Assembly (NCBI GenBank): GCA_028554645.1 | Contig: JAQOOI010000021.1 | Location: 372,001-436,000, forward strand | Source of the DNA: Omphalotus guepiniiformis | Taxonomy: Eukaryota > Basidiomycota > Agaricomycetes > Agaricales > Omphalotaceae | DNA length: 64,000 bases | Direction: 5' to 3' | Part shown: in pieces, positions 6,394 to 34,586 of the stretch | How the letters are laid out: each line of letters opens with the position of its first letter | Numbering within the stretch: position 1 is the stretch's first letter | Notes under the pieces: model-generated | Seen by the model: only the letters and a program-made list of their open reading frames with translations | Databases searched by the model: none | Told to the model about the DNA's origin: nothing | Made by a program: the position numbers and the translations under genes

Positions 6394-7952
6394 AATATGT
6401 ATCTTGTAAGTATGTATCATATGTGGTTGAAGCTCGAAGAAGGCGGGTTTTGTTTGTCGGCGGCTCATATCATGACTAGGATTCTCAATAATGCAGTATT
6501 TATTCACATCCCACGATCTCGCTGTCATTATTTCTCTCCTCAGAAAAGTATTGCTCAATACATCTGAGTACCCAAGTTGATACTACACCGCCAGCATCTC
6601 ATGCCACCAGTGCTATCTTGCATAATGATGGGGGTTATAATAGGTGTGATTCTATCCAGGCGGTACTCTAGCAAAGACTGCACAGTAAAATGGCAGTGTT
6701 CGTATCTTCCATTTAGCGTGATTAATGTCCTGAGTACTCAAATGTGATTTATCCTTAAACATAAGCTATGTCGGAATACTTATTCTGCGGCCATACCGCA
6801 ACCAGCAACTTGAATTCACACCTATCTAGCCTTAGATGTGAATGCTTCTGAGTTCTTGAACTTCTTGTGAATGAAGGAGATTAAAATTAGAACTTTTACT
6901 TACCGGGATATCGAATCCGCCGTTGATTAATTGTGGTCTGAATCATTTAGAGTCTTGGAGTGTGAGGAGTTTGTATGACTGTGAGCGGGAACTCTTCATC
7001 AGCGATGCACGAAAGAGAAACAAAGTATGTATAGATAGCATCACTGATAATGATGATCGGGATTAGGATGGCATTCTGTACAGTATAGGTACCTGGTACA
7101 TACGTATGTAGTAAGTATTTGTAGGTGAAGTGAAAGGCCCGGGCAGAATGACGATTCGAGGGACATTAAACTCTATGTCGAAACGAATAACAGACTCTTT
7201 TGCCTCCGACTCGGAGCCTGAGAGAAGTCAAGACTCATGATGATACCTGCATATGTATTGGAGGCTAACATCATATATGAAATCGAGCATAGAGAGTTAC
7301 CTGTATTGTGCTTCCGTTTGTACTATGAATCCCTGAAGGTCAGAAGAAATACCACTCGTACCTCTCTTGCGTGCCACATTCAGTCTCCAGCGGTGCTTGT
7401 ACATCGTTTGTTCAAGGAATCGTATTGGACGGCGTCATTTGGTAAAGTTGATATCGATTGGTTCTCAGAAATAAGTGTCTGAAATCTAAGGTGAACTGGT
7501 GATATATCCACGGAAAAGCCTGTTGATCTTGCAAGTTTCTGTTGACTCTTGAAAAAAAAACCTGGAAGGAAGGGACGAAGTTTGAACGCCGCAAATACCG
7601 TTCCGTGTCATATTGCCGAATGTCTCGTGGCATGACACTGACTCTTCTTCCTTCACCATCACCATCACCATCTTTCTGTCCGTCCACAGCGCTCAGACTA
7701 TGTTAAAAATACGAAGATTTTCACACAAAATTTCAGGTGATTACTTTGTATGTACCGCGTCCGAATATACTGGTCGGACAAGAATTTGAGCGTGGAATCA
7801 GGGACTTCTCTCTCGGTGAGCTCGGTTTTCCGAAGCTCACCGTGTAATAAACTCATTTTCGGGCAAAGCACCACAGATTCTTGAATCTTTTGTCTTATAC
7901 ACCTCGCGGCTTGGCTTTTGAATCCAATCAAAACTCGTAGCTCGCACATAGC
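6394..7952. other. Intergenic sequence left of the mobile element
   Basis: Open frames here are short, overlap on both strands and show no family motif. I see no gene. The stretch runs up to the AACGGT flank of the mobile element. Confidence 0.5.
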
Positions 7953-7958
7953 AACGGT
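7953..7958. repeat. Left copy of putative 6-bp target-site duplication (AACGGT)
   Basis: AACGGT lies exactly six bases outside the TGTCC core of the left terminal repeat. The same hexamer lies exactly six bases outside the core of the right repeat at 26681-26686. The symmetric placement argues for a real duplication. Confidence 0.7.
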
Positions 7959-7989
7959 TATGGGTGTCCTTATTGGACAAAAATAAATC
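7959..7989 (+). repeat. Left terminal inverted repeat of the mobile element
   Basis: Begins TATGGG then the core at 7965-7981, which matches the reverse complement of the right end at 16 of 17 positions. The core is itself an inverted repeat (TGTCC...GGACA) and could bind a transposase dimer. Confidence 0.8.
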
Positions 7990-8026
7990 GTGGTTTTCGT
8001 GTGTGACAGCAGTTGATATCGTACAA

Positions 8027-8407
8027 TGATCACACAGGATCACACTCGCCGGTCGCGTTCGATCCGTGATCACATGTGATCATACTATGAAATTGGTTTT
8101 GTGTAATGCCGAGCACTGACTTTGCAACTGTGATCACTCCTATCGAAACCAATACAGACAGTCGTTGAAACCTCTACAATTCCTTCACTCACAATGATGA
8201 TCACATTCAAGCTGCTGTTTTTGTGATAGATTCTTTATGTATGTCAATGACTTTGCTGCCACTGATTTTGTAAACTGAAAAATACTCATAGAATCATCAG
8301 TTGTGATCATGTATCTTAGTTGTATTTTGCTGTCCTACAGGTTATACAAATTTCGTCGATCGTGATCATGCACCCTATTTGTCTCACTGGCCTCTGATTG
8401 TGATCAC
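8027..8407. repeat. Left subterminal array of TGTGATCACA palindromes
   Basis: Full or near-full copies of the palindrome TGTGATCACA occur at about 8027, 8037, 8066, 8075, 8130, 8198, 8302, 8362 and 8399, irregularly spaced and in non-coding sequence just before the first element gene. The same motif recurs at the other end. Known parallel: subterminal transposase-binding repeats of many DNA transposons. The array could also act as promoter elements for the gene starting at 8567. Confidence 0.8.
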
Positions 8408-8566
8408 TTTGCCCAATGACCATGACAGCTTTCACGACTTACAAGTTCAATTTTCTTTCCTTCAAGTTCTTCATTCCTCGTCTTCTTTGTCACTCATAGC
8501 AGCTATAGAAGCTATTGTTCTCTTTTCCACAGTCTTTAAATCATTCACTATCCTTCATCCATAAAC

Positions 8567-11500
8567 ATGCCTTGTACTGACTGCCCAGAGCCAGAATCTG
8601 CATGCGAGGAGGCTTTATTGCTGCCAGGTGGTTCAGTAGGGATATCCACTTGATGATTCTTTTCTCAATGACTGACTATTTACTCTTTTGTTGTTAGGCT
8701 GACAAGTGTGGCCTATGTTCACATGATGTTGCGAAACATATTTCTCAGCCTGCTCCAGTTTTGCTGCCTCCAAAAGGTGGATGCTCTCGTACAGGCTGTA
8801 TTCGCTATTTGGCACCAGTATGTGATTATTCTTTACTCAGAGCATTTAGTAAATAACTTTGAGCCCATATCCACTAGGCTGGAATTTCTGTCGCTCCTCT
8901 TACTCGCTGTATTCAGTCTCTCGTTCAAACTGCTTCTGATCCACCGAGCTCTTCTCTCTGTGGTGCACCTTATCAAGCACATAGTAATTTGCCCTTAACA
9001 CAAATGTTCGTTTCATGTTTAATGTCCAAATACTTTCTCGCTTATCTCTATACAGTTCTCTTCCTGCTCCTTCATTGATTTCGTCTCAGCGAAATTCAGA
9101 TCGAGCTGTTGCCTGGAGCAATCCTATAGAAGTAAGTTATTGTGTTATTGTCAATATTGTACAGTGCTTAACTAAGCTATCAAGGCTACTCGTGAGAAGG
9201 CTTCAATGTCCACTAATGATCGACGAGTTCAATCGTATCAGAGCCATGCTACACCCAGTGCTTGGAGCAAGAAAGGAGCTACAGCAGTACGAGTTCCTCG
9301 ACACTCCTTTCCTGTCAAGAGCGAAAAGGCAATGCTCAAGGCTGCTGCAAAATCTCAAACTGTGACAATTGATCTGATGTTTTTGCCTGAGGCAGTCTCA
9401 GTGGTTCGTTGCCTTGTACTCATGAGAAGAAATATTCAGTCTAACTCTAAGCTGCTTAGTGCTTGCCTGATGCTGTATCAGACTATCGACCCCCAGCTCA
9501 TGGCCTTCAGATTAGCGATGATGATCTCTTGACGCTTGGCACTCGTTTAGAGACTGTCGGGCTCCGCTGGGCATTTGACTTACCAGACAAGAGCACTTCA
9601 GCACTGGACTTTTTGCAGCTGATCTCCTCGTCTATTACATCTCATCTTGCAGCCCTTGGGGTCAAACTGCTGACTAATCCCAATGTTGTTACCCAGGTCC
9701 GCGGTTGGACTCTTGTTTGGGGTGAAAAACCTCGTCGTAGTAAGGATGGTGTTCCTTTGAAGCGCACATACTCTCCGCATCGCCCTTCAGTTGCCAATAG
9801 CTGGTGGGAACTTCCCAAAGTATCAGCCTTAATTAAAAGTGTTCGTGATCTCGGTTTCGAGAAAGGTACACTCATTTTCGGTGAATTTTTTTTTTGTTTG
9901 TTTTTGTCACCATTTTATTAACAATCCTTATTACCTGCGATAGCCGCAACAACTGGTCCACTTTCGTTTGCTGGTCATTACTGCTGTGGTCCCAAGCTCA
10001 TGATAGGCTTTATTCAAGAGCGCAAAGTACTTGCGGGAGACGAGCCTGTTATCGACCCACCTTCTTTTCTTGATTGCTTTCACGAATGTTCAGTTATCAA
10101 AGATCCTGCACAGCCTCTTCATTTTCGTTATCCCGTTCTTGATGTTACCGTCAGTTCCTTTTCTGACGCTGCTGCACGGAGCTTTGAGCTGGCAGGTCTT
10201 TCTGATGACGAAGACCGCGAGATTGAGGCTGGTATAATTCCTGCTTCTCATGGTGTTAGTGGTGATTGCAATGACAATGCACTCACTGCTGCTATACGCG
10301 ATTCACTTATCACCCATGAGGTATATATCTCTTCATGTCTTTTGATGTCTTTTGGCTTTCGGTTTGACATCTATTAAATAGCGTGAAGAACAGGCCCGCC
10401 TTGGCCTTGCCACTGCTGGTGCCAGCTCGTCGACTACACAGGCTTCAGCTCCACCTGCCATTAATCATCAGACACGGCCAACAACTGGTGTGCGCAGACC
10501 ACGTTCTCCACAGGTGAAAGCTTGGTTGGTACACTCAACATGAGCAGTTGTTAACACACTTTGTTTCTTAGAGCCTGATCACAACAGTGGACCATCCTGC
10601 TTCCCGTCGCCGCACTGACACTGAGGCCCAGACCTCGAGTGAAGTCATCGATCTCACACTTGCCAATCCAATTCTGTTTTCACCTCGGAATACTCAAGAG
10701 CTAGCTCGTATCATCACCTCATTCTGCAAACAGACTGCTGGGTTTTCTGTCAAAACCCAGCAGTCTGCCGAGGTTGCTGTTGCAGCATTTCTTACTGCAC
10801 TAAAGCGTCGTTATAATGCACCCACTTCGGCATTGGAATCTTTCTCGAATGTTAAAGTCAATATACCTTCGGAAGATATCCTTTTGCTTCATAGGCCTAT
10901 GATCCAAATGTAAGATCAAACTAATATTTTGCTGCAGATGTTCTGACTTGCTTTTTATGGCAGTGGTCCGGGACGTGGTGCCTCGCTTATCAAGGTCTTG
11001 CTCTCGTCTGCAATCGAAACAATGCTTATAGATACCACTTCTTGGCTTCCAATTGATGACAATCTTTTCGTGCTTCGCGCACATCATTATCCAAGCCGGC
11101 TCGGAGAAGCCACATTCAAGGCTTATGGGACTCTTTGTGCACTCTCGCTTGTTCATCTCAGGAGTCTTCCACGCACTATCTCGCCAGCTTTGTTTGAGGC
11201 CCTTATTCATGGTCACCATGCTGTAGATGATGTTAAGTGGTTGTCGTTTCAACCTGGTGCTGTCGCACCTCTTTCTGCTTGGCCAACAGATGGAACAATC
11301 GCCATTCCTGACAACGATCATACTCGTGTTGTTGCTGCCTACTTTGACCGCCAGGTTAGTGCTATTGTTACTGCTATTTCGTATATTTAGCTAAGCACGA
11401 TTCTAGCCTGCTGATTTCAATTCTGCTGGAAACGATGCTGACTTTCGATGCAATATCCGACAACAAGTTGTTGATCATGTTGTTCTTGGCATTCCCATTG

Positions 11501-12285
11501 GTCCTATGTCTTTCGATAAGATCCCTGCAGTCTGTGCCTTCAAGGAAGGGTTTGATCTTCACCTTAATGATTCAGTGTCGCTTCTTCAGGTAAGCTTAAA
11601 TTGATAACATAGTTCATTATCTAATCTGTTCTGAACTATTGTAAGCTTTTCGGACCACATTCAAAAAGTCTTTTATTGTCACTTATTGGTCGTTTTCCTC
11701 AAAATGGAACAGCAATTTCTGCTTGTATAGAATGGGTTCCCTCTGGTGCTTCAGATCTAGTTGTATATGAGGAACAATGGAAAGAGGGTCTTCTTCGCTA
11801 TCTCAATGGTGTAGGACATGTTCAGCATCCTAACCTGGAGGCTATGATCCCTGCCCATGCTATCGCTCAGTATGCTAGTGATACTGGTCTTAGAGCTCGT
11901 CATTTTCTTCGCTATCTCACTGGTGAAGACACTATTCCAAAACCTGGTAGCATTAAGGTATGCAATTTTACAGTAACTTTAAGGCTGGGTCAGTGAAATA
12001 CATTCTCGTTGTGCTACAGATCACATTCAAGGCTCCAGTTAATGCTCTTTCAGAGGTATGTCCGACTATCAAGCTTTGGGCTATATATAATCAGAAAGTT
12101 CGTAGACACCTCCTCCAATCAATGTTCATGCATGCTTTAATCAAGCGACAATTGAACTGCATCCCAAGATCTGTGAACTTCTTGATCTCTCTCTCTCATG
12201 CTCTTCACAGGACACCACTGCTTTCAGTGTGTATCTGCATGCAATCTTTTGTAGTGCTGGATCTGATGATTTCGAGCAAGTGTAG
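8567..12285 (+). CDS. HECT-like domain protein encoded by the mobile element
   Basis: Fourteen exons (8567-8635, 8698-8817, 8878-9005, 9056-9131, 9185-9403, 9460-9865, 9944-10320, 10382-10513, 10572-10909, 10964-11354, 11407-11589, 11646-11957, 12020-12055, 12211-12285) add up to an uninterrupted 953-residue frame. The N-terminus is cysteine-rich (CTDC, CGLCSHD, CSRTGC) and may bind zinc. The middle is low in motifs, with a polar Ser/Thr/Pro stretch. The C-terminal part resembles a HECT ubiquitin-ligase domain: SPALFEALIHG, AVCAFKEGFD, then FLRYLTGED followed by PKPGSIKITF. The usual active-site Cys in the final strand is not found where expected; the last exon reads DTTAFSVYLHAIF. Family assignment is by pattern only. 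The gene reads inward from the left end, 560 bp inside the terminal repeat. Confidence 0.75.
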
Positions 12286-12459
12286 TGTCTGGAACTTCTA
12301 TAGTGTAGCCTAATAATGTGATGTTCATATATTACAGTTTATCTGGATTTTGAGTGTGAAAGTAGTCGACTAGATGGAACACGATTGCTACTGTTACATT
12401 GTCATTTCTAATATTGCTATACACCTTCTTCGTAACATTGAATTGACCAGCACAATCAC

Positions 12460-13961
12460 ATGTCTTGGTCATATCAGCTTCGAAATCGGTCAATTCCTAC
12501 TCCCTCAGCTAGATCACAAAACAATAGACGACATGCTCAACTTGAAGTAGCTGCAGATGAAACAAATCATTCGCAGGCAACAGGCTCTGTAGACTTAAGC
12601 CTTGAAGCTAGTATGTTTATTCACTGAATGTCTCGCTTCTAGGAGACAACAATTAACTATATTCCCTTTCAAAGATATCCAAACCTTGGAAAGAACTGTC
12701 ATCAATTACAATGATGCTACTGAGTCCAATCAGATAGAAGAAGAGAGTAGTCCATTGAGCAGTGCTCCTGCTTCGCCTTCACCACAGCCTCAGCTTATCG
12801 ATTCTTTGTGTGGCTCTTCAGATGTACTAGCAACTGAACTGTCATCATCTGAAACTGGCAATGCATTGGATATCATAACTTCTGAAGATTTTGAAGAGGA
12901 TCGAGCATCTGATCCTGTGGAACGAGGTAAGTCATAAATCAGCTTATCTCTAAAATGATCTTCTCTCTTACGAATTCTAATTTCTATTGCTGATTTAGAG
13001 CCAGTTTGTTCATCTGAGAATGACACTGGTTGTAATGCTTCTTCAGAGAGTAGAGGAGAGATTATATATTCCGAGTCAAGCAGTCAAAGTATGTCTCCTG
13101 TCTATTTGGCCTTTATCGTGCTAAGACCTAAAATCTTTCTATGTAGATTTGCTGCATGATACACTGAATGAAGCACCAAATACCAATCAGTTGCAGCAGC
13201 AGATAGCAGACAGTTCAGTGGCCGAACCAGTTCAACTGCCTCAATGGCTGAGCGACTTTGTTGCCAGCTGTTCAGTCACAAATCAATCTTCGTTTCCAAG
13301 TCAATTACCTCTCACTATGCCACAGTCACCTGTAGCCTGGTCAGCTTCAGAAATACCATCCAACAACACTCTGCTTCCATCGACATCAGTCTTCACCGAA
13401 CCAGTAACACAACATCCAGTCTCTCAATCACCACAGGCGACAACTTTCTCCTCATCTGCCTCGTATCTGACTTTCTGCTTCCCTGAATACAGCAGAGAAG
13501 TTCAGGCCTTTCGGCTACATGGAGACAGGTCTCTGACAGCTTATCGAAGCTTTCGGGAGTTTGTTGTTTTACAAGCAGTTAGCGAAGCTCTCAACCTCTC
13601 AATTCACACACGACAGATATATACACCAAGTGTCTCACCTGTACCTGGGGTATCTCTCACTCTCTCTGACATCTTTCAGTGGGCTGGTGTCATAGTGGGA
13701 ACTTTTTGGAATAAGAAGACTGAGGTTGGGACAGCAGTGCGACTAGTGAACGATTTAGAGCTTCTTGTCAGGGAGGGTGTGGCAAGCGAGAGTCTTCGGT
13801 TCATGTATACCCATTATTGGCAGCCTTATCTCACTGCATATCATTTCTGGTCTGACAATGCACATATCAGAAGACCAGAGTCGCTGGGCTGGAAGCTAAA
13901 CGAGATGAAGGAACATCTAATAGAGCTTGACAATCTTATTTCTGCTACACAGTTATACTAA
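12460..13961 (+). CDS. Hypothetical protein of the mobile element (435 aa)
   Basis: I do not recognise this protein. Four exons (12460-12610, 12675-12926, 12999-13088, 13147-13961) splice into an unbroken 435-residue frame starting MSWSYQLRNR. The first 270 residues or so are low-complexity, rich in Ser, Gln, Glu and Pro with acidic clusters, suggesting a disordered region. The last 160 residues look folded: an aromatic-rich segment (TAYRSFREF), a predicted helix with IFQWAGVIVGTFWN, and a final region with tryptophans (HYWQPYLTAYHFW). It begins 175 bp after the stop of the HECT-like gene and reads the same way, so it is probably part of the element's own gene set. The first acceptor (12674) was chosen because the nearer AG at 12642 runs into a stop. 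Confidence 0.65.
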
Positions 13962-14108
13962 TAAATAAGTAATGATTTTCATGTTATACTCAGATACTTA
14001 ATAGTGCTAATTGCCTGTATACTCTGCGAATTGTATACTGGCAATGAGAGTAGAGACACTGTCTAAGGCTTATACTCTGTAAAATTTCATGGCAGTAAGG
14101 CATACATT

Positions 14109-14210
14109 TGGCTGAGTAGTTAAAGGCACACCCTCTCTGGTAAAGGTACGGTCTGATCGTTAGCTAATCATCTTATGTAGCAGCATATGAGTTCAAATCC
14201 TAGTGAGTGC
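14109..14210 (+). repeat. tRNA-like (SINE-like) sequence, copy 1
   Basis: Contains an A-box-like stretch TGGCTGAGTAGT at the start and a B-box-like stretch GAGTTCAAATCC at 14189-14200. The 34 bases at 14125-14158 are identical to 22124-22157. Outside this core the two copies differ, including the B box. The layout resembles a tRNA-derived SINE head or a type II tRNA, but I cannot fold a complete cloverleaf. It marks the left edge of the cargo region. Confidence 0.55.
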
Positions 14211-14599
14211 AAGTAGTTATATCTCACCGATGCTACGTGATAGTGCCAGGTGTTTTTTGCACTGTCAAGTTTTTTGGCCTGAATGATTCCAGCAGAGAGT
14301 GAGTGAAGGAACAAGAGCGACAGGGAGAAGAATATATACAATGGAGGTATACAATGGAGGTATACAAATGCTTCAATGTTAATGTGAATGCCGATGAGCT
14401 TGATCCAAGCCCTAATACGAAAGAAAAACTGAATAGAATATGCTTGCAAGGATCCAAATCCAAATCCAAGGAACGACAGCAGACAATGCGAAGAATTATG
14501 TAGCAGAGACATTACCTAGAACCGAAAGGGAAGGAAGAGAAGACAGGGAAACCCTGAAAGAGATATTCCTGAACTTCGAACTTCGAACATATATGAGCC

Positions 14600-15290
14600 A
14601 GAGACCCAATCAGCTAGCTATAACCACAATACTTCCTACTCCAACTCCCCACCTCCTACGCCGTCACTCCACTAATGATCCCCACGAACCACCCAAAGAT
14701 CGCCATCAAGAACCTCGCCAGCGCAATATGAATAGGCGAGGCGAGCAGCGGGTTCTTGGTTGGCGGTTTTGCTTCGCGAGTTCTGTGGCAGAGGGTGAGG
14801 ATGAGAGAGAAGAGGAAGAAGATGAAGGGTTTGCGGAGGATGTAGACTAAGACGATGAAGACGGGCGTCTGATCAACATATGTTCACCTTCTGCCTGTGA
14901 TTGTACAGACGTAGACTCGGCGGCTACATCTGCTAATGGATGTAAATCCACGGGGAAAGCACTGGGAAGCGTCGACATTTTCATAGCGGGTGACCGAACC
15001 ACCGTGACCATCTCCAGTTTCCTGCACCTTCTCTCCTCCCTCTTTGTCCGAAGCCTTGTTCTCCAACTCCTCTCCTACCTTATCTGTTTCCTGCACACCC
15101 ATACTCTGCTTCTTCTCATCCATCTCGTTCACCTCCTTAGTCGCCACGTCCTACCAGCTCATCAGATGCCGAGCTAGCGACAGAACTATCACCCGAACTC
15201 GTGCTAGTCGCAATACCCAAAGACGGCGCGACAGTCGCGCGGACAAACCAAGTCGACACCTTCATTTCGTTCCCACTACCTCGCCTTGGC
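14600..15290 (-). pseudogene. Fragment of an unidentified membrane-protein gene (cargo)
   Basis: On the minus strand 14646-14870 reads as the C-terminus of a membrane protein: a hydrophobic segment (FIVLVYILRKPFIFFLFSLIL), a basic loop, and a second hydrophobic helix (FLMAIFGWFVGIISG) before a stop. Upstream pieces at 14884-15147 are charged and acidic (DEKKQSMGVQETDKVGEELE), and a segment near 15150-15270 begins MKVSTWFVRATVAP. The pieces may be exons of one gene, but I found no continuous spliced frame and I do not recognise the family. It lies between the two tRNA-like copies with other gene fragments, all on the same strand up to 18.9 kb. Confidence 0.35.
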
Positions 15291-16189
15291 TCTCCACATT
15301 CTTCTCCCGTAGATCAGGTATCGGTACTCGAAGCAAACTGAGGGTATGAATGTTTGACTGATCATTTCAAGGATCAGTCTCGGGCTTGTGTTTCGTCAAC
15401 GGTGCTATGTGTCGTGTGGGTGATCGTAGATGTAGCGTAACATTTTCGTTACTCTCGGGTCGGTGTATGCCTCCAAACTAGAATTGACAAACTTGACGGA
15501 GTACATAGTACAGCATGCATACATGATCTAAAGGTGAGAAGAGATATTAGTATGTTGGCATTGAATATTGAGCGAGCATGGGCAAGAGGAATGACGAAGA
15601 TGAAAGAAGCAACACGTCAAAAACACTAACCTTGTCCAAAGACTGAAGCTCCCGACTTGCCCTCTATTCCTCCCGTTTCACCGTTTCATTCGTTCCTACT
15701 CGTACGCTCCCCTACCCACCCAGCTTCATATCACCCGTACCTTGGGTTCGTCGTCGATTTGAGGTGGCTTTGCAATATCTTTCCAAAGACTATCGGCTTC
15801 AATATTCGCCTCGAAATCATTACGTCGAGAAGGCTGATAGTGTTAATATATAGCAGTGGGCAAAGAAATGTACTCGAGTTACTGGTTTGTCCTGAGGCTG
15901 ACAGAACAATTAAAGAGATGTTATAACATGACCCAGTGAACCAGACTCACGAGCGACATTTTTGCGGTCCGCTTCCTTACTTTGACGTGGCTATATAATT
16001 GAATGAGTACATACATGTTGGCAAATGGATGAGCAGACATACACTCGTATTCTTCAAAGACTCCTGAGCCCACTGCGACTCCATACCTGTTGCTTTTTTG
16101 TGTATAATGTTCAGCAACTTGCGAACCTCTTGAATTATTTCCGAATCAGCCCTTCATCCACCTTATTTTCGTCCATGACAAGCTTTCCT

Positions 16190-16420
16190 TCCTTCGAAGT
16201 GACGGCAAGGAAGAAGACGATAACCCATCCGAACTTCAGCCCACATCTTCAAGTCGACAGGCCCAATTCTCGGGTTCAACGAAGCACCCATGAAGACATC
16301 GTAGACGAAATTACCCGACATTCTGATCTGTATGGTGGCGACGGCGAAGAAGTACACGCCGAACGAGACACCGAAGCCGGCATAGAACGAGCGAGTGAGG
16401 ACAAAGGGTCGTTTGGGAAG
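16190..16420 (-). pseudogene. Fragment of a C-24(28) sterol reductase gene (ERG4 type)
   Basis: ERG4-type enzymes carry out the last step of ergosterol synthesis in the ER membrane. The minus strand here reads a hydrophobic helix, then RMSGNFVYDVFMGASLNPRI and VDLKMWAEVR, the signature of this family (a GN-YDFFMG-LNPRIG-DLKMW-E-R pattern). The next family residues (WVIVFFLAVTS) follow in another frame: a few bases are missing between the Arg codon and the Trp codon, so the frame is broken at about 16232. No full-length gene surrounds it; I could not find the C-terminal RHPHY-like region. It is therefore a broken fragment carried as cargo in the element. Confidence 0.7.
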
Positions 16421-17659
16421 GGTTTGATTGCGCTCGGACAGCTTGCGAGGTCATACTGTGCTGCACGTTGATGGTATCGTGAGTTTTGGGTACGAAATGT
16501 CAGGCAGAGAACATACGAAGAGCATTCCGTTGATATTATGCACGTCACAATGCTCCCATCCACCGTATTGAATGTCATCCCTTGGCATACTGATCTCCGG
16601 TCCATTGAAGACAGAGGGCTAAAATGATGTGTTAATTATTGATATCCTCATAGTCTGACTCCATCGTTAACGGTGCCAATGAGCTTGTGTTGGTCGTTGA
16701 AGACCGCGCGACCGACTAAGAGGCACTCAGACGTGCTCAGACACTAGAAGAGTGATGTAGACTCACTTGATAAATACCACACGCTTGAGTGCGTGTCACT
16801 CCATAGTCTCTGCAGCCACTGACAGGAAGAGGAGGACTAGACAGTGCCGGCATTCCAAGAAGGTTGATGTACACAAATGAACACGAGGTCGTATTTCAAC
16901 CTTAGTCTCTAGTAGGCGTAGACAACTATCATAATTGTAAACATTGTAAACACTGTTCAATGGGTGAGTTTCATGTAACTTCCTTTTTGAGCAGCCATCT
17001 CGGGCCATCCTGTATTTAGGTCCCACAATGTATTGTGTACACTGTATGCTGTGTCCATTCCCGACCTCTCATCTTCGAGCTTCAACACTTGTAGCTAACA
17101 GTCCCATCCCCAAGCTTGATACAATTCTTGAACATAATAGTGTCATTGTTAATATCAGTGCAGAATGCCAGTATCTTGTATTTTCGCACACTTCAGGTAT
17201 AACTTATACTATTCACTATATACGAGACAAAGAACATAAAGAGTGCAAGCGATGAGCAATGCAAGCTCCGTACTCATCACCCTGAAGAGGAATAAAAAGA
17301 CGTTGGTGCAGTCGTTGTTGGTGTGGTGGTAGTGGACGGGGGGAAGGACGAAGAGAAAAGACTTGACGACGACAGTGAAGATGAAGGCGACTGTGAGAAC
17401 GTCGATCTGAGATAGAATGTGTTTAGATAGGAAATGAAGAGAAATGAAGAACTACTCACGACAAAGAGGAGGTTGATGAAAAAGCAGCAGACGAAGACGA
17501 ATGAGAAACAGACGAAGAGGTACTAGAGACGCTTGAAATCGAGCCAAAACTAATAGCGGTAGCTACAGTCGAAATTGTCTCCTAGCGAGAACGATGAGGC
17601 CCAGAGACCAGAGATGGTGGTGGCGGTGGCGGCAGCGGAAGAGGATAGTGATACGCAGT

Positions 17660-17795
17660 AGCAGTTGCCACTCCTCTTTGGTTCCTGCGAGCACCACGAC
17701 GATGAATCTGGTGTACATCTCTCGAAATCTTGAGCCCAATTTTGTAGAGTGGACTTGGGTACGGCGACAAGGTGCGGTCCGTGAGTATCAGGCCA
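17660..17795 (-). pseudogene. Fragment of an ISWI-type SNF2 chromatin-remodelling ATPase
   Basis: The minus strand reads GPHLVAVPKSTLQNWAQDF followed by ERCTPD, a close match to the segment after the Walker A region of ISWI-family SNF2 helicases (normally GPHLVVVPKSTL-NW--EF-RWTP). The continuation (IVVVLAGTKEEW) is present in a shifted frame, so there is a small indel at about 17693. The GKT Walker A and DEAH box are not found nearby, so only a small piece is present. It lies among the other cargo fragments. Confidence 0.7.
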
Positions 17796-18084
17796 TACCA
17801 GCACGACGTGGTCGATGTTCAAACGTTCACCGAGTAGGTCACCGAATCTACTACAAATGGTCGGGTTATTGCCTAAAGTACATATATGCATTGACTCACC
17901 GAAAACTCGTAGCTACTCCCAACGCAAACGGGCTTGAATTGTCGTAGAATAAGAAACTAGCGATACCGTTTGAGATGCGAGAGTCGTTGGCACAAGTCCT
18001 TGTTATCCGCAGCAAGAGTTCAGAGTGCTTATACCACCTCGTCTCCCAAGGCACCTGTCTTCGTTGTTCTTCCTGTTCATCTCG

Positions 18085-18900
18085 CCGATGCAAGAAATCG
18101 TGTGAAGTCAAAAGCTACGGGGATCGGAGTATCCTCCCTGAGCTCCATTTCGAAAGAAGTCCATCTCGACGGTTCGTGAGTTTCGGGCGGCTTTCCTCTA
18201 CGGGCGAATAACTGATCCTTTTTCCAATGGAATCCCATCCATTGACCTGTTGAGTTGGGTCAGGCAACACAGGCCAACTCAAGACACTGTAACGAATTAC
18301 CTGCAGAAGTCACGAAAGGTTCCTCTGTGACCGAGAATAAACTGTAGAACCCTAAAGAGATGTGAGTTGCGCACGGAGGCTACAAGTACCGAGCTACTCG
18401 CCTACACCAAAAGCTGGAGAGAAACACGGTGATCAGATCACCTCGAAAACATGCACTGGTTGATGACACACCTCCTAGCTTCTCTTCGTCTGGATTTCCT
18501 TCGGCTAAGCAGAGTATCAGCTTGGACTGTCAAGAACAAAGAGTAGATATTTTAAGGGACTAACCAATCTTCTTCAGCCGGTTCCAGTCTTCGTCCCTGA
18601 ATGCAATGCCATCGTTTTTGGAAGTCCACTGGTGCACCTAAACCAATTTTCATTGTCATACAATACGAGAATCGTGTGTCTCAACGTACGAGTGCGGTCT
18701 TCAAGTTGGGCAGACTCGTCGACGTCGGACTGCCTTGACCAACAGAACCCTCCAGGATTGCATCGTCCGAATTCGCTTTTCTGTCCAAGTAGGCTTTGGT
18801 CTCAAATCGGATCTCAACCGCATTCGATTGTGCGTCGTCGGAGTTCTGCAGCAATTCGAGGTCTCGGACCCTTGGCCACGTACAAATAGCCAAATCATAC
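18085..18900 (-). pseudogene. Fragment of a DUF3684 (sacsin-like, HSP90-type ATPase) gene
   Basis: Several exon-sized pieces in order on the minus strand match the N-terminal GHKL ATPase region of fungal DUF3684 proteins: ELLQNSDDAQSNAVEIRFET (about 18860-18800), FRDEDWNRLKKI (near 18570-18610), EGNPDEEKLG (near 18490), FYSLFSVTEEPFVTS (near 18320-18360), then QWMGFHWKKDQLFARRG and SFEMELREDTPIP down to FTRFLAS (18250-18085), where the frame stops. The pieces are separated by intron-like gaps, which shows that genomic DNA rather than a cDNA was copied. Only the first few hundred residues of a protein normally well over 1,000 residues long are present. The AFGVG glycine loop between the pieces is damaged. 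Confidence 0.75.
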
Positions 18901-19839
18901 TATCAAATGCCGCTTCGGTGTCTTTATCATGAACATGTTTCAACTAAATATGTCGAGCACTGATAAGTCCGTACTCACTGCCTTATTTCCAGTGAAGCTT
19001 CGATTTCGGGTGGTGGGCGGGTCCATGGCGTGTTGAGTCTGCGTAGGATGTGCGACTGCAATCCTGTTCGCGCGCGCGCGAAGCATTGGGAGTCTGCAGA
19101 GAAGATGTTCATTCCAACAGCCGCACATTTCGAAATTCAAAACGAGTAACTCACAGACAGGAGCGCAGTCAAGATCGTGCTTGCCATCCCCAGATAACGA
19201 GCCAACGTGAATGACACGGAACTGATAGAGACGTGTCTTGGCCACCACACATAACGAGTGTGATGAACGAAGATCGCGGGAGAGCAAAAGTCAAGCTAAA
19301 GGAGGAAGGGCGAGGCAGAAGAAGCCACACCTCGTCGGAAACGGTCAAAGCATAGTCAAATAGCTAGATAGCGTAAACCAAATCCAACCGTCGGCGTGAG
19401 TTTAGTTACGAAAGGGTTCAATTGGAACACGTATGAACAACGCTGAATGGGTCTGAATATCAGCAGTGGCTCCAGACACTACGAAAAACGAAACACATAC
19501 AAACTATACTCTACCCAACAATCCATAGAACCAACTACACATTGAAAACCTAACAGAATACCCACATTTCCCATACGTGCATGCTCCACGCACTCATACT
19601 TGTTGGATGCAGGGAAGGAAGATGAAAGCAGAAGTATTCACGATGTCACGGCGAAGATTCAGACGGCGCTAACCCCACGTGCCACTGACAATCACCCACA
19701 CGGACCCACAACCTCCCACAACTCACTCAACAGCACTCAACCGCGTTCTTCGACATACGAACATGTCTTCAGAAATCGAAACAATACGTGACAGACGAGC
19801 TACGTGAGACTCCTCGTAGCTTCGCTAGTGCGGGGACAC

Positions 19840-21445
19840 CAAGCACGAATACAACGGTGAATCTTCGAGTTGCTCTTACATCGAAGGATACTGCTGGATT
19901 GGAGAAAGCTCTATACTGGTAGCGCTCTATACGGCCAGCATCTTAGCCTCGACCAAGTGAGTAAAGCTTATCATATCTAGTGACATGGCTGATGAAACGT
20001 GGTATCATCTAGGTCAAGGCATATGTCGCTCCAACACCAGACTCAGTTTCAGCTGTCACACAATGGTTCAATGAGAACGGTATTCCCAACGTGACCACCA
20101 GTGGGGCCTTGTGCACCCGACTACCTCATTTGCTCAACCTCGCAGGAACAAACCGGTGGTCTCGATTCCGGCATCTGGATCGTCAAACATCACCGCAAGG
20201 GCGAATACTGCGCCTTCTTCTTGTGACAAAACCGTCACTCCTACTTGTCTGCCAGACCTGTATGGTATTCCGAGTACCGCTGCGACAGAATCTTCAAATA
20301 CCCTTGGAGTCTCTGGTTTCATTGATCAGTTCGCTCAAGTACGTATAAAGCCCGTAACGGCCATAGTTCTATGAACAAGAGAACAATCATCTGACTTTGC
20401 ATATTCAGAAATCCGACTTGAAGAGCTTTTTATCGCAGTTCAGATCTGACGTCTCCTCGTCAACTACATTCGCTCTGTCTGGTAGCCGTGGACGATGGTG
20501 CAGACCCGCAAGGTGCTCGAGATGCTGGTATCGAAGCGGTAAGAGAATTTTTGAGTTTCGAGAGCATGATTCTGACAAGCTGCGACGTAGAATTTGGATA
20601 TACAATACACTGTTGGTGTTGCGACGGGTGTCCCTGTTACATTCGTTTCTGTTGGTGACGATAACACCGATGGAGAAGGTGGCTTCCTCGACATCATCAA
20701 CTTTTTGAATGGTCAACAATCACCGCCTCAGGTTTCTATGTCGATCCTTTCTTATGAGCTGTTCCGCTGATAGACGACATTGGTCCAGGTTTTGACAACC
20801 AGCTATGGTGCTGATGAAACTGGTATTAGCTTTTCTATGGCGAAGTAAGTCGCGGCTTCGGTTGTCCTTCAGCGTTATTACTGATGAGTACATGGCTACA
20901 GTAAACTCTGCAATGCCTATATGGCCTTAGGCGCACGAGGCGTGTCGATTCGTTTTTCTTCTGGTTCGTGATCTAGTACGACCGTGGTTTCGTCAATCTG
21001 ACTTGCAAACTTGCCCTATAGCTGACGGAGGCGTATCCGGAAGTCAAAGCCAAACTTGTTCAATATTCATTGCTACCTTCCCTAGTGGATGCCCTTATCT
21101 TACTTCCATCGGTGCTACACAAGGTGTAGATGAAACTGCTGCTGACTTCAGTAGCGGTGGTTTCTCCAACGTTTTCTCTGCACCTTCCTATCAATCTTCA
21201 GCGGTGGCTGGCTACTTGAAGACTCTCGGTAAAACGAACTCGGGCCTGTTCAACTCTTCGGGCAGAGGTTCCCTGATGTAGCGGCTCAAGGTGTCAGTGT
21301 CGACATTGTTAGCGGCGGAAGTACTCAGACTGTCGATGGAACTTCGTGCTCGAGTCCTATCTTCGCAAGTGTTGTATCTCTGATTAACGACCGTCTCATC
21401 GCCGCGGGAAAACCTGCTCTTGGATTCTTGAACCCTTTGTACGTT
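19840..21445 (+). pseudogene. Broken S53 (sedolisin/tripeptidyl-peptidase) gene fragment
   Basis: Sedolisins are secreted acid serine-carboxyl peptidases. In order on the plus strand: the prodomain pieces TTVNLRVALTSKDTAGLEK and SALYGQHLSLDQ, then VKAYVAPTPDSVSAV; a gap; ASGSSNITAR and LYGIPSTAAT; GVSGFIDQFAQ; NLDIQYTVGVATG, which carries the catalytic Asp; VSVGDDN; VLTTSYG; ADGGVSGSQSQTC; and DGTSCSSPIFASV with the catalytic Ser. Breaks: a deletion with frameshift near 19920, a loss of about 40 residues with frameshift near 20110, and a frameshift near 21270. Introns are kept (for example 20341-20407). The signal peptide and the extreme C-terminus are missing. It is clearly a decayed genomic copy carried as cargo. 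Confidence 0.85.
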
Positions 21446-21479
21446 TAGTGTTTTTCGTTAATTGATACCACTTGCTCAA

Positions 21480-21850
21480 GATGTCTTCAATAGCCTGGAC
21501 AGAACCTTACCGGAAAGGTCGTTATTGTACGGTACAGCGGAAGCTACCGTGGTCTCAAGGTATGCCTTTTGCACCCTCTCTTCTCGCCCCATTCATTTTA
21601 CACAACTGACATCGTTTTTCCGTTCAGATCCAACGTGCGGAAGAACTCGGCGCAGGCGCGATCTTCATCGACTCTGACCCCTGAGACAATGGCTACGTTA
21701 CCGTATCAAACGGTTGCACTCCCTACCCCAAAGGTCCCGCTCGAAACCTCACCTCAGTACAGCACGGGAGCACAATGTACCTATCTCTTTAACCCGGAGA
21801 CCCAACTACAACACGCTTGCAAGCATGCCAAACGGGAAAACTGCTGAACG
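21480..21850 (+). pseudogene. Fragment of an M28 NAALADase-like (glutamate carboxypeptidase II) gene
   Basis: Plus strand reads DLTGKVVIVRYSGSYRGLK (about 21500-21559), an intron (21560-21627), then IQRAEELGAGAIFIDSDP and YVTVSNGCTPYPKGPARN, the protease-associated domain region of M28B peptidases. An in-frame TGA stands where the family has Arg (21682), consistent with CGA to TGA, and another stop follows before PGDPTT. The metal-binding peptidase domain is absent. It follows the S53 fragment within about 40 bp although the two families are unrelated, so the join is not a natural gene order. Confidence 0.8.
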
Positions 21851-22106
21851 TCGAAGTACCGAAACACGACGGAGTGGTGTCGAACGTTAGTCTGTTGCGG
21901 GAATTTAATACGACTGTACCTAGTGCGGACCAAGGCAAGACACGAAGGCAGATGTGAAGTGTAGATGCACAGCATTTAGGTTTGATTGCGCAACTATGAT
22001 GGCCATCGTGGTGGTCGCAGTAGTTGTTATGATGACTATGTATGTACTGACCTACATGTATTTTGAATATATAAGTTCATTATTATGATTACTGTAGACA
22101 CTTCAG

Positions 22107-22210
22107 GTAGCTGAGTAGGCAATGGCACACCCTCTCTGGTAAAGGTACGGTCTGATCATTGCATAAGCAGGCTATATAAGAAGCTTTCGGTTCGAACCTG
22201 TATCGAGTCA
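22107..22210 (+). repeat. tRNA-like (SINE-like) sequence, copy 2
   Basis: A-box-like stretch TAGCTGAGTAGG at 22108-22119 and a B box GGTTCGAACC at 22189-22198. The 34 bases at 22124-22157 are identical to copy 1 at 14125-14158. It lies at the right edge of the cargo region, 106 bp before the oxygenase gene. Confidence 0.55.
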
Positions 22211-22315
22211 GAACTAATTGCCACAGGTGCAGGCGCGAGGATCGCGATGCGAAGCGAAATGCGAGGATTTATATATATACCTGGATCTATTGTTGTCGTT
22301 AACTATCCTTCAACC

Positions 22316-24054
22316 ATGTCGGCTCCCAAGACCCTTCTACAATTTCAATGTCAGTATTTTTTTTCACTTTGTTTCAGAAACTAATTCACCTACTTTATAG
22401 ATAAAGAGTTTTTCGCTGAAAATTCAGTGAAGTTACTTGATTCACTGACTGTAGACAATATATCCATGCAGCTTGGCCACGAAGCATTGCAGAATATACA
22501 GAACTATATTCCAGTCAAAGATGTAAGCTGTCTGTATCAATTGCACCTAATGTACTCTCTGATTGCATGAACTAGTTTCAGGAATTTGTAGCGAAGGGAT
22601 TGAGATATTATCCCTCACGTTGTGCACAAAATCGCTCACTGAAGCATGTGCAGTCTGTTCTAAGACAGTCCAAGAGGAACCAGCAAAATTCTGCAGGTCT
22701 GGCATCACATCGTCAAAGACGAGCATTTGTATGTTAACATATATATATTGATGCTTAATGAGGAAAGTCTGCTTACTACTGTTTAGATCAACTCGGTCAC
22801 CAATAAGCCGTTCTCTGTTCAAATGCTGCTTGACTTGGCACCAGAGGAACGACCAGTGAAGATCATCTGGCGTGAACGAGAGAAGACTTCACCGATTGCC
22901 CGTTACACATACATGGCTGAAGACAAGAGTCTTCTTCGCAATCCGAAGCAAAACCACACTGTCATAGACAAAAGTTTCTATGTCGTGAGACCCGAGGAGT
23001 CTGTCATATTCCTTTCTGGAACTCGCAAAGGTATTTGACTGCTTTTGTAATAAGATGATCCTTTTTTCAACTTTTTCACAGACTTTGAAATAGAGCTGGT
23101 TGTGATTCGAGGTGTAGCCTTGGGTCAAGCTTACACTGACTCTCTATATAAGTGGATCAATTCCACTATTGACTTGGCTACGGCAAATCGACGAGATGTT
23201 CGGGTGAGTCCATGTGATACGCATAGATAATCGTGCATTCACTAATCACTTTGTATAATTATTAGCCAAATCATGTAGGGAAAATGGCACAGCTTGGACT
23301 GAACGTTGGTCCTCGTCATGCTCGTGTACTAGGGTGGGCCAAATCCTTCACGCGAAACCTGACAGAGACCGAAATGGTCATTCAAGACACAGACTGTGTT
23401 GGAGTTCTCTCTCTTTTTTGGAGTTTGATCCAGGCGAAAATGCCTTTGGAAGTGATTACGGACACTCTCAAACATATAGACGAAGGTGAGCTGCCATCAA
23501 TGGCAACTCGCAATGTTAGTGAAGGTATGTTGTACTTCTTTCAGATCTGTTGAGTGTTAATCATTCAATACATAAGGTTTTGGCTATACTGTTGAGCTCA
23601 ATGGAGTCAAATACAAATTTACATCTGCAAATCGTGCACCTCCTGAGGGATATATGACAAAGGGGTATGAGTCGTAAGTTTTCAATTGACATCATACAGA
23701 GCCTCTCTTATGAACTGACACACATCCATTAGATGGACTCATACTGACCAATCTAATTTTCCCTGGACCTTTGCCTGGAACACAGGCAGAGAATCTAATG
23801 GTTCCAATCCAAAACCCAACCTGGGCAGTAATTTTGTGGATAGCCAGCTAAAGGTTATTGTTCAGATGGTTCCTGGTACAATGTTTTCTTTTCATTCACA
23901 GTTCATGCATGGGACCACACAAGGTCCCTCCATCCTTAGCCGAGGTGTAGCTATCACATTCTCTAAACGTGTTACAGATGCAGTAAAGGAACTCACTAAA
24001 AGCATGAGTGAGGTGGTCATTGAAGCTAGTAATGGTTCTATGCTTGCAGAGTAA
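22316..24054 (+). CDS. Putative 2OG-Fe(II) oxygenase encoded by the mobile element
   Basis: Eight exons (22316-22349, 22401-22522, 22582-22728, 22787-23030, 23082-23203, 23266-23524, 23577-23673, 23733-24054) give an unbroken 448-residue frame starting MSAPKTLLQF. The C-terminal third shows what looks like a double-stranded beta-helix: a His-x-Asp pair in WTHTDQSNF (exon 8), then PGTMFSFHSQFMHGTT with a distal His, and SRGVAITFSKR with a candidate 2-oxoglutarate-binding Arg. The order and spacing fit 2OG-Fe(II) dioxygenases. I do not recognise the N-terminal 250 residues. TET/JBP-type oxygenases are known passengers of other basidiomycete transposons (KDZ), but I cannot say this protein belongs to them. 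DNA, RNA or protein could be the substrate. Convergent with the integrase gene. Confidence 0.65.
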
Positions 24055-24333
24055 TATATTTAGACTTTTATCTCTTGGTATTATAATTATTAAAAGGCCA
24101 ACTAAATATATGCTTCAAGTTTCTACAGAATGACATTATCTTTTTATAGAACATAAGTTTTTAGACCCTTGAGCCAATTGCTTTTCTTCAAGTAGTCACA
24201 GCTCAAGAGCTGTGGGCTAAGCTGTGTGCATGCTCACCAGCACTGATTAAGGTCTGGTCTATTGCAAAAGCATATAAGGTAGTTCACAAGAATCAAGTAG
24301 ATTTGTATCACATATATATAATACATAAGAAAA

Positions 24334-26245
24334 CTATGAGATGTTGAGTAGATTATAGAGCAAAGCAAGGGCTTGTCTCCACAATGACTTTCTATCCTCC
24401 ATATCACGGGAATAGTATTCAGGGATAAGTGCCAGTGCATCATTGAATATGTCAGCTTGCTCCTGCTCTGCAAATGGACACTGGAACTCGGGTATCTCAA
24501 CAAGAGAGAGATGTGGTGGTCGATGGGTATTATGTTGTTCAAGGTTCTCTAGTTCAGAAGGGTTGTGTTGATTATGATGAGTAAGGAGTATATGATCAGT
24601 CAAATCATGCCAATCAACACCATAGATAGAGATGTCCTCGATACGGTCCTCGGATTGTGTGCTCTCGTCAGGTGTACTGGGTGGACCATGTAGCCCCTCC
24701 TGAATAGCACCAAAAAAAAACATATCACGGGGAGAGCGCTCTCGTGAATCCTCCTGTCGTAAGTTGTGTGAGTTCCAGGCACCTGCCCAGTCCTGAGCAT
24801 CCTGATCAATGGAGGGAAGAAACAGATAATGAAGAAGCCAAATGTGTGAATCTGTGTCAGGAAGCAGGCCACAGTCCAGTTCGAGAGCATAGAAGAAGTT
24901 GTACCATTTTAGCCCAAATCCTTGAGTCACATCACGCCACAACCGTTCTATCCGAATGTTGTGCACACTCCTGTAATCACAATGAACAATGTAAACCATA
25001 ATGCAAAAGTGCAGTGTAACATACCTTCCCCAGATATATGATCCTCGCTCCACTCCATATGTTTCCTCCATGTATCTAGCTACACCGAGATTTTCAACAC
25101 CGTGATCACCCCGCACTCGGCTGGGCGTGCCATGTTCCTCAATTGCATCAAGATACAAACACAGAACTGTATCTGCCCTGTTGTTGTCATTAGCCTGTAT
25201 AGCTGTCACCATGCGTGAAAAACCATCAACAAATGCATGAATAACAACACGCCAGCGGATAAGACCTGGAAACGAATATTATACACACTCAATAATTTAA
25301 CAGTAATGAAATGGCTCACCATGCTGACCATCGTGGTGCCATAGAGCATTAGGACCAGGAACATAATATCTTCGACGCTCCACTGGCCTCGAAGTCAAAT
25401 GAGCAGGAGCCCCAGTTACACGCTCGTACGATGCACGCAAACGTTCTCGAGGTACATGGTGACCAAGGTGTCGAAGATGACCAGTGATCATTTGCCGACC
25501 AAAAGCAGGAAAAATTTGCAGTATGTGGCCAACAACAGTGTCAAGTTCGTCATCAGAGAGTGCTGACATAGGGGCTGTCGAAGACTTGTAAAAGCGAAGA
25601 AGCTCTCCAGTCTCTGGGTCCTCGTACACCACATAAACAGGGGGACAAGGCTCTACTAGCCCATACTCAAGAGCCCGACGACGAACAGTGCGTGCAGAAC
25701 ACTCAAATACAGGAGCAATGTGAGTGACACCCCGATACTGAAGGCTAGTCTGCAGCAGATGCCTGTCAATTTCTTTTCTAGGTCGCCCTCGCTGGCCTGT
25801 ACGAAGTATTTGAACAGGTGAAGGAGGAGGGTCTTCAACTGTGTCTTCAGAGAAGGCAATAGCATCATCAAGAGCGATGATCATTTCTTGAACCCCGGTC
25901 TGAACGATGTTGAATTCTTCAGTATCAAAAACCTGTCCATGCTACAAAACAATATGCTAAGCACTTGCTCGGATATACTATACAAATAAAATAGACACTG
26001 CATACCTGTTCCACAGATGAAAGAAACTGACTCGCTGAGGTGTGTTGTCGCTGAAGAAGAGGTATGTCACCAACTTGCAGCTGCAGTGCATGGGTCACCC
26101 GAGTTCCTAACTCGCGATAAGCAGCTCGAAGTGTATGGAGTTGAAGATGAAGATCTTGAGCTGCTGGATTAGGCTGGCCTCTAGCAAGGAGAATGACGAA
26201 AAGAACCACAAATGGTATTCGAAGAAAGTAAGAATACATCATCAT
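24334..26245 (-). CDS. DDE integrase/transposase of the mobile element (retroviral-type integrase core)
   Basis: Four exons (26245-26006, 25932-25320, 25265-25025, 24970-24334) give 576 residues. After a short N-terminal part comes a GRPRK motif and a helix-turn-helix-like region (ITH IAPVF...ARTVRRRALEYGL, about residues 120-160). The catalytic core has the three acids of an rve-type integrase: Asp in WHHDGQHG, Asp in RVRGDHGVEN and Glu in NIRIERLWRDV, with 56 residues between the Asps and 34 between the second Asp and the Glu. NIRIERLW is characteristic of the eukaryotic integrase-core family related to bacterial IS3. The first 25 residues are unusually hydrophobic (FLRIPFVVLFVILLA). The frame is intact with all three acids, so the protein may be active. 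The start lies 435 bp from the right end of the element. Confidence 0.9.
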
Positions 26246-26337
26246 GTCAGAGTTATAGCCTATGTGTGTAGGTTCGAAAAGTGGTGTGACTCAGACAGTG
26301 ACCCATTCTAGTCCCAACAGAAACAATCCAATATCAT

Positions 26338-26430
26338 TACGAAAACGAGCTGCAGTCCTGCCCTAACGAAAACGGAGATAAGTGCTGAACGAAAACGAAA
26401 ACTGTTGCTGAACGAAAACGATAATGAATA
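26338..26430. repeat. AACGAAAACG short repeats near the right end
   Basis: The sequence ACGAAAACG recurs four to five times (about 26339, 26365, 26391 and 26411) in 90 bp between the integrase start and the GTGATCAC array. It is asymmetric and absent from the left end, so it may be promoter or binding sequence for the integrase gene. Confidence 0.55.
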
Positions 26431-26436
26431 TCATTC

Positions 26437-26555
26437 ATGATCGTGACACGAAATGGTACTGTGATCATACCCTGAAAGCGATAGCCAGCTGTGATCACTA
26501 ACCGAAACCTGAGTGTGATCACATTTGAGACTACAGTGCTCACGAATGTGATCAC
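26437..26555. repeat. Right subterminal array of TGTGATCACA palindromes
   Basis: Copies at about 26460, 26491, 26514 and 26547, plus a degenerate one at 26437. The motif is the same as at 8027-8407, and the array lies 120-240 bp inside the right end. Confidence 0.8.
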
Positions 26556-26651
26556 GAAGCTTTTGCGAGGCTTGTTGTTGAATTGGACATTGGTCTTCGG
26601 TTTGTGTGAGCATAATTCGAAAACAAGTCGTGACCAGCACTAAAGCGATGC

Positions 26652-26680
26652 ATTTTATTTGTCCAACAAGGACAACAAAA
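26652..26680 (-). repeat. Right terminal inverted repeat of the mobile element
   Basis: Reverse complement reads TTTTGT then TGTCCTTGTTGGACAAA, matching the left end core at 16 of 17 positions. Confidence 0.8.
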
Positions 26681-26686
26681 AACGGT
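26681..26686. repeat. Right copy of putative 6-bp target-site duplication (AACGGT)
   Basis: Same hexamer as 7953-7958, at the same distance from the terminal core. Confidence 0.7.
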
Positions 26687-27554
26687 GGCTTTCGTATGTT
26701 TTAAAACATACATACATCCCTTTAGAGATCGTTAGCTCGGTAACCCCTGGGGGATGATCAGTTCGGGTCCCGGGATAGGTTGATTGGAAACAAGTCTGTG
26801 TGGGGCAAACTGATTTTAGAAAGAGATGCAGGTCCGTTGGCATCTGGGACCATCTGGATTCTGCCACGATGAAGGAGCGGTGGATAAATGCACACTCCGA
26901 GATACGTTAGGGTACGTTATGTACGTGTATGTGACGAATGCTGAGGTACCTTTGAGTTGCTATTCAGCGTCTCGGGATTACCCAGCGGGTATTGATATGT
27001 TTTTCTCTCTCTCTAGAGTCTACAGTACGAGTCTGCCCTCGTAAGGCCCTCTACCAATCGACAATCAACGTCTATGCTCACGATATGGTCAATGTTGAGG
27101 CGTACAATTTGAATCAGTGCTAGTGATCATTTCGCAGCCGATTTCGGACTAGTGATGCAATTTGAGATGAAGTCTCTTCTTATCAACTCAAGTGATCCAC
27201 GTCCTGGGCTGTACTAAGGCGATTCATGGATTCGCCGCCTCTTCGCATCTCAGTACTGCCGCTTCATCACTGTATCAAAAAGGCGCTCGGGCATATGTTA
27301 CTCGAAGAGTCACAAAAAATCAATTAAAAAGTGACAAATCCTGTTGCACCGACGTTCTATTTTGCCTTCTATATTTGATTGATAGCACGCGGCGCTGAGG
27401 CAGCTGAGGCAGGGTCACTATGGGTCACATATTCTTCCATTCTGATTCAGGGGTTGCGTGGCTTGGTGGTTTTTTGTTTAAAGAATGTTCGGAGTTTTGT
27501 GTGTTGCTTGCCAATCTCTCCTCCGCATCTTTGTCCCTCCTCCATCGTTTGGTC
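26687..27554. other. Intergenic sequence right of the mobile element
   Basis: No convincing coding frame; only short overlapping frames on both strands. Probably holds the promoter of the gene starting at 27555. Confidence 0.5.
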
Positions 27555-34517: not shown

Positions 34518-34586
34518 TTCACGCTCGTGTGTAGGTACAATGCCACTCCGTACATACTTCTTTCTACATTAAACTCGGTAGATACA

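Follow-up and report, generated by a model that had tools for sequence, protein, structure and literature searches.

The window analysed here, 64,000 nucleotides of the Omphalotus guepiniiformis genome (assembly GCA_028554645.1, contig JAQOOI010000021.1; C20:372001-436000 in our contig numbering of this 42.5-Mb, 80-contig genome), contains an 18,722-bp element at positions 7959-26680 (positions without a contig label are those of the window). We interpret this element as a single IS3EU-like cut-and-paste transposon with a 6-bp target site duplication (TSD) and an extreme, probably repair-mediated, capture of host fragments, and we put the probability of this interpretation at roughly 80%. A preliminary description made from the sequence alone had presented the 18.7 kb as the element's own gene set. 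This was not borne out, as 7.9 kb of it is a block of DNA captured from the host, in 22 or more pieces, and that description overlooked the main feature of the element, the mosaic of host pieces at 14180-22109.

Termini, subterminal arrays, and transposase

Each end of the element carries an inverted repeat, TGTCCTT(A/G)TTGGACAAA, whose two copies match at 16 of 17 positions and lie 6 nt inside a copy of the hexamer AACGGT, the putative TSD (left copy at 7953-7958, right copy at 26681-26686). The left terminus (7959-7981, plus strand) reads TATGGG, which directly abuts AACGGT and fits the TAYGG of IS3EU, followed by the 17-nt repeat TGTCCTTATTGGACAAA. The right terminus (26658-26680, minus strand) is made up of the repeat TGTCCTTGTTGGACAAA at 26658-26674 and six outer bases that read TTTTGT inward. 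The matching inverted termini and the equally distant AACGGT copies had both been described before, and both hold. A search of the 42.5 Mb with the pattern TGTCCTTNTTGGACAAA, a 17-mer with one free base, gave 38 matches at up to two mismatches: two exact, which are the two ends of the element in opposite orientation, one with one mismatch, and 35 with two. The same pattern read backwards as a control gave 29 matches at this threshold, and the genome-wide pattern count rules out a chance origin of the element ends. AACGGT alone is common, with 17 forward and nine reverse matches within the window; it serves as evidence because it stands at an equal offset from both repeats and because TATGGG adjoins it on the left as in published IS3EU elements. 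A 6-bp duplication of the IS3EU kind is thus present at both ends of the one element copy. A diverged right terminus was also seen at C16:151179-151250 (85% over 72 nt), within a palindrome of two facing copies that offers no usable TSD.

Arrays of TGATCA lie inside both ends, with eight copies on the left (8027-8406) and four on the right (26462-26554); the whole window holds 42 copies against 28.9 expected. The arrays had been reported as repeats of the 10-mer palindrome TGTGATCACA, which is correct for the core TGATCA but not for the full palindrome, found only once inside the element, at 26514. The TGATCA arrays are likely transposase-binding sites.

The transposase gene (24334-26245, minus strand) has four exons and encodes 579 aa with an rva_4 integrase core. 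Splicing confirmed the intact D-x56-D-x34-E integrase claimed for the element: the reading frame has no stop over the 579 aa, and 56 and 34 residues separate the D, D, and E. The protein matches PF24764, with an rve match below cut-off, and its relatives are mushroom integrases, including those of Paramarasmius and Marasmius, at 70% identity. There is good support for reading the element as a DDE transposon that has these ends and encodes an integrase of its own.

A mosaic of host fragments

The mosaic cargo (14180-22109) lies between two direct repeats, and its first and last matched bases are 14279 and 21985. It comprises at least 22 segments from at least 19 host loci on 12 contigs, each 52-1,398 nt long and 77-98% identical to its donor, in both orientations. 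These counts are lower bounds, since they come from a search of 14000-22400 against the genome in which the best 40 of 55 candidates were scored. That search returned 49 matches, including one to the locus itself; keeping the best match per interval left the 22 segments, and the 26 uncounted matches were paralogs or weaker candidates for intervals that already had a match, further copies of a short repeat, and matches at 71%. Twenty stretches of donor sequence were fetched to place the 22 segments, which together cover 6,641 of 7,930 nt with 450 substitutions. Three donor regions (C63:446.9 kb, C72:598 kb, and C76:845 kb) supplied two segments each, with donor gaps of 107, 750, and 150 bp, respectively. 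By eye, the donor flanks, taken as 28 nt beyond each of the 44 segment ends, look unrelated to the element.

Two adjoining segments at 19795-21504 (plus strand) are captured pieces of a sedolisin gene (pro-kumamolisin family) at C76:845263-847142, with 150 bp lost between them. The second of these pieces consists of 1.4 kb of genomic sequence crossing more than one reading frame, which suggests that the template may have been DNA and not mRNA. Next to them, 21495-21837 (plus strand) is a fragment of C20:2521252-2521603, presumably from a PA-domain/M28-peptidase-like gene, and 17666-17790 (minus strand) derives from C22:267407-267532, in a helicase-sequence gene that we take from its motif GILADEMGLGKT to be of SNF2/ISWI type. 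The 68-nt segment at 16885-16952 is a short repeat with at least 13 genome places at 85-94% among the matches listed, and has no Rfam match. No tRNA was found by ARAGORN in 14000-22400, nor any RNA by Rfam at gathering scores in 7500-27000. The captured pieces are probably non-functional passengers.

Like Pack-TYPE (Pack-TIR) elements, the element holds host, putatively non-transposon sequence with parental copies elsewhere between its terminal inverted repeat (TIR) ends (22 segments, 19 loci). The multicopy cargo moving with the element that also defines them was not seen, the element being single copy in this genome.

Control searches rule out the mosaic as a general trait of the genome's DNA for the flank and for the element's own modules. 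The left part of the element (6.5 kb) gave one non-self match, the sister copy of the direct repeat; for the right part (5.1 kb) there were three, namely an integrase match at 65%, the related C16 terminus, and the direct repeat. The flank at 27200-35600 (8.4 kb) matched a single paralogous gene, on C20, and a single repeat that has three more copies. This repeat (30007-30634, about 628 bp) has inverted ends of about 38 bp, and its copies on C62, C72, and C76 are 99-100% identical; it has been recently active and resembles a miniature inverted-repeat transposable element.

Junctions, bracketing repeat, and timing of capture

At 13 of the 21 junctions, neighbouring segments overlap or lie within 8 nt of each other. 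The clean overlaps share GA, GA, and CCTT; mismatches blur three more. A direct repeat encloses the mosaic, its left copy at 14111-14161 and its right copy at 22110-22160 (both plus strand), with 92% identity over 51 nt, or 83% over 69 nt when extended to 14179. A tRNA in this repeat was not supported by ARAGORN; Rfam searches at E up to 5 were blank for 14000-14350 and gave three weak snoRNA/miRNA matches, far below cut-offs, for 22000-22350.

The segments differ in their level of substitution, from 1.5 to 15.7% (chi-squared 131, 21 df, p 6e-18). With a paralog as outgroup, changes on the element side number 36 in 1,682 positions for the sedolisin pieces versus 30 in 333 for the adjacent M28-like piece (Fisher p 2e-8). 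Judging from these divergences, capture probably took place in more than one round, and unsampled donor paralogs or unequal rates could mimic the signal.

Other genes of the element

The element also carries a gene model for a TET/JBP-fold dioxygenase (22316-24054, plus strand; 448 aa, eight exons) that splices without an internal stop and contains an HxD...H motif. The predicted fold of a homolog resembles those of TET2, CMD1, NgTET1, and CcTET, which points to a TET-type double-stranded beta-helix. HxD is present in all 10 alignment rows with letters at that site (12 rows in total), and these 10 rows also share HGT. A Pfam search up to E 1 gave no TET-type match and a PDB sequence search up to E 5 no match at all, and the dioxygenase is therefore far from CcTET in sequence. 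With its TET fold and HxD...H metal motif, this transposon-borne protein is like the transposon TET/JBP dioxygenases of the PU, AG, and PE types as characterized in parts of PMC12730594; it reads HTD and is thus not of the PE type, whose hallmark is HxE. Eight loci in the same genome (L064-L071) are distantly related (23-31%) to one exon of this gene, and three of them (L067, L068, and L070) show, by eye, HFE where the element's gene shows HTD, like the published PE type.

A further gene model (9206-12285, plus strand) has 10 exons and no internal stop and encodes 852 aa. Its C-terminal part is weakly HECT-like (Pfam E 0.036, and E 0.14 for an 841-aa version), but the scores of 14.1 and 12.2 bits fall below the curated cut-off of 23.9 expected of a ubiquitin ligase, and no HECT chain is among its three weak PDB matches. 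We did not adopt a HECT identity on these sub-cut-off scores and leave it as a weak resemblance. No homologs were scored for this protein in a search with the 841-aa version as query and words from its first 500 residues only. A 278-aa open reading frame (ORF) at 13125-13961 (plus strand) is probably the last exon of an unknown gene; a genome search with it returned only itself. The preliminary description had credited the element with three other intact genes; the 852-aa and 448-aa models and the 278-aa ORF are indeed open, but the sedolisin is a captured piece that has lost 150 bp. Polintons/Mavericks are marked by genes for a protein-primed DNA polymerase B, a packaging ATPase, and capsid proteins, none of which was found among 16 element ORFs in an exon-by-exon Pfam scan that was not exhaustive. 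No alpha-kinase was found among the proteins scanned. The native element is about 10.8 kb long, with the transposase, the TET-fold dioxygenase, the 852-aa protein, and one unknown ORF.

A second integrase family and a second patchwork

A second integrase family, with copies on C77 and C41, shares 44% aa identity with the element's transposase; its two copies are 96-99% identical to each other in long aligned stretches. One end of this family, as reverse complement, reads GGGTCCTCACCGGACAAAAATATTTGG, close to the element's left end GGGTGTCCTTATTGGACAAAAATAAATCG. No left end of the C77 element was found within C77:152500-168509, and because this other end was not found the C77 element yields no TSD. 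Two C77 stretches of 7.2 kb and 5 kb near the IS3EU-type integrase gave 80 and 25 matches, many of them repeats. Among these, at about C77:156142-159092, is a chain of fragments lying end to end, a second patchwork, with the IS3EU-type integrase nearby at C77:166110-167009. C41:184822-193670 matches part of this patchwork in the same order, which suggests stepwise gain or loss.

Comparison with known systems

The comparisons made here draw on portions of the cited papers. In complete IS3EU families the ends are always TA..TA and the TSDs usually 6 bp long (Kojima 2023, PMC10045372), and IS3EU elements with TET in rusts have 6-bp TSDs and TAYGG..CCRTA ends (Kojima 2025, PMC12730594). The element shares with IS3EU/GingerRoot an integrase-type DDE transposase, a 6-bp TSD, and a TAYGG-type left end (PMC10045372, PMC12730594), and differs in its right end, which is not CCRTA/TA, in an inverted repeat of only 17 nt, and in its 7.9-kb block of host fragments. 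In rust IS3EU, the TET gene lies between the transposase gene and an oppositely oriented alpha-kinase gene (PMC12730594); the element's TET gene is likewise flanked by the transposase gene and by one of opposite orientation, but the latter is of another kind. The text sections of PMC12730594 give IS3EU with TET for rusts and Tuber indicum, not for Agaricomycetes. Styx of Zymoseptoria is also an IS3EU-related fungal transposon, with four ORFs and 6-bp TSDs in all four examples, but it is 7.9 kb long and has other accessory genes, and no host-fragment mosaic is described in the portions of PMC10853768 used here.

With Pack-MULEs and Pack-TIRs the element has in common non-transposon host fragments between its ends, parental copies elsewhere, and microhomology at the joins (PMC8277862, PMC13317346); it differs in being a fungal IS3EU-like element that holds 22 pieces from 19 loci. 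Joins of animal Pack-TIRs bear a gap-filling/template-switching signature, with microhomology of 1-36 bp and a median of 2 (PMC8277862), and by analogy the joins seen here resemble that signature. Fungal hAT and Tc1/mariner transposons also carry host-type sequences by transduplication, but in the portions used each element holds a single captured gene or coding sequence, such as histone H3, and not a mosaic (PMC3538342, PMC6710886). Helitrons of Pleurotus ostreatus are likewise class II elements of a mushroom that bear extra genes, with little capture reported in the part of PMC4289320 used. IS3EU does not occur as a term in the available portion of a 2026 review of capture in plants (PMC13317346), and no host-fragment capture by IS3EU was found among the titles and abstract openings listed in the literature searches, with subscription journals and preprints outside its coverage.

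Alternative explanations and proposed mechanism

Several observations weigh against a single transposon with repair-mediated capture. The right end reads ..GGACAACAAAA (...ACAAAA) and not CCRTA, so that of the TA...TA (TAYGG...CCRTA) termini only the left fits; for this reason we use the term IS3EU-like and refrain from assigning the element formally to the superfamily. The outer six bases of the two ends (TATGGG and TTTTGT) agree at 3 of 6 positions. Further copies sharing these ends were not found in this genome, so that transposition with the cargo is putative. At eight of the 21 junctions, 26-331 nt have no counted donor; for two of these eight there are only 71% matches (17045-17239 to C19; 17795-17998 to C76 and C20). 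Both mosaic edges (14180-14278 and 21986-22109) likewise lack a counted donor. The unequal divergence of the segments misfits a single event, unless donor rates differ or the true donor paralogs are unsampled, and donor-side changes are also more frequent, though not significantly, for the M28-like piece (10 in 333 versus 25 in 1,682 for the sedolisin; p 0.064). By eye, the direct repeat (14111-14200 and 22110-22205) resembles pol III A/B boxes. The dioxygenase fold is assigned from the model of a homolog with moderate confidence (pLDDT 67). Finally, the C77 patchwork could not be placed within transposon ends, and the process may therefore not need a transposon.

The strongest competitor, which overlaps with our interpretation and which we consider a serious though lesser possibility, is a host DNA-repair accident in an immobile transposon, that is, templated insertions at a break with no active part played by the transposon. 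It would account for the single element copy, for the microhomology and short untemplated joins, and for a patchwork on C77 outside any established transposon ends; many Pack-TIRs are single copy, and most of these are deemed transposition-independent in the relevant portion of PMC8277862. Against it, the transposase, TET-like, and 852-aa models have no internal stops, so that the element does not look long dead, and the C77 patchwork likewise lies near an IS3EU-type integrase. The bracketing direct repeat could instead mark a second, unrelated mobile element that carried host fragments into the 10.8-kb IS3EU-like element. We regard this as improbable, since the 0.5-kb stretches around each block edge, searched separately, gave only one 14-nt palindrome, the edges are not joined by any of the 25 longest among the 144 inverted pairs of the region, and a Pfam scan of 16 element ORFs showed no further transposase. 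A duplication of 51-69 nt is, moreover, longer than any TSD we know of.

That all 18.7 kb are native, as first described, fits termini, duplication, and arrays that enclose the whole stretch, but the 7.9-kb middle is largely made of fragments of other host loci with unrelated flanks, which contradicts this view for most of 14279-21985 and leaves it very little room. Equally hard to credit is a coincidental unit whose inverted repeats and AACGGT copies stem from two different nested or truncated elements: the differing outer six bases and the single copy would agree with it, but the 42.5 Mb hold no exact match to the repeat beyond these two, TGATCA arrays lie at both ends, and the transposase sits at the right end.

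Under our interpretation of one IS3EU-like transposon with captured host DNA, the transposase would bind the TGATCA arrays, cut at the TATGGG end, and leave 6-bp duplications, while the TET-like enzyme, going by its predicted fold, may oxidise methylcytosine on the element and so aid escape from silencing. A break or excision gap inside the element would be filled by DNA synthesis jumping among unrelated templates, with the jumps joined by 2-4 bp of microhomology or a few untemplated bases, and the bracketing direct repeat would be the overlap of repair tracts from two sides before joining. We infer that the element is mobile with its cargo.

More tentatively, at somewhat less than even odds in our estimation, the IS3EU-like transposons of this fungus recurrently pick up dozens of short pieces of host sequence in successive rounds, by template switching in the repair that accompanies transposition. 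The position of the C77 patchwork near an IS3EU-type integrase and its partly identical order on C41 suggest such stepwise growth.

Significance

For annotation, the element calls for caution, as a predicted gene can, like the sedolisin here, be a scrap carried by a transposon. It also brings to light, in an Agaricomycete, an IS3EU-like element whose TET-fold gene departs from the published PE hallmark, and gene capture now includes a mushroom transposon of the IS3EU-like kind. The route by which DNA transposons gain pieces of host genes is an open question; with about 20 joins in one element and donors still recognizable in the same genome, the join chemistry and the order of capture are directly readable here. 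If fragments are indeed collected recurrently, this would be a fungal counterpart of the plant Pack-MULEs, and a far more fragmented one.

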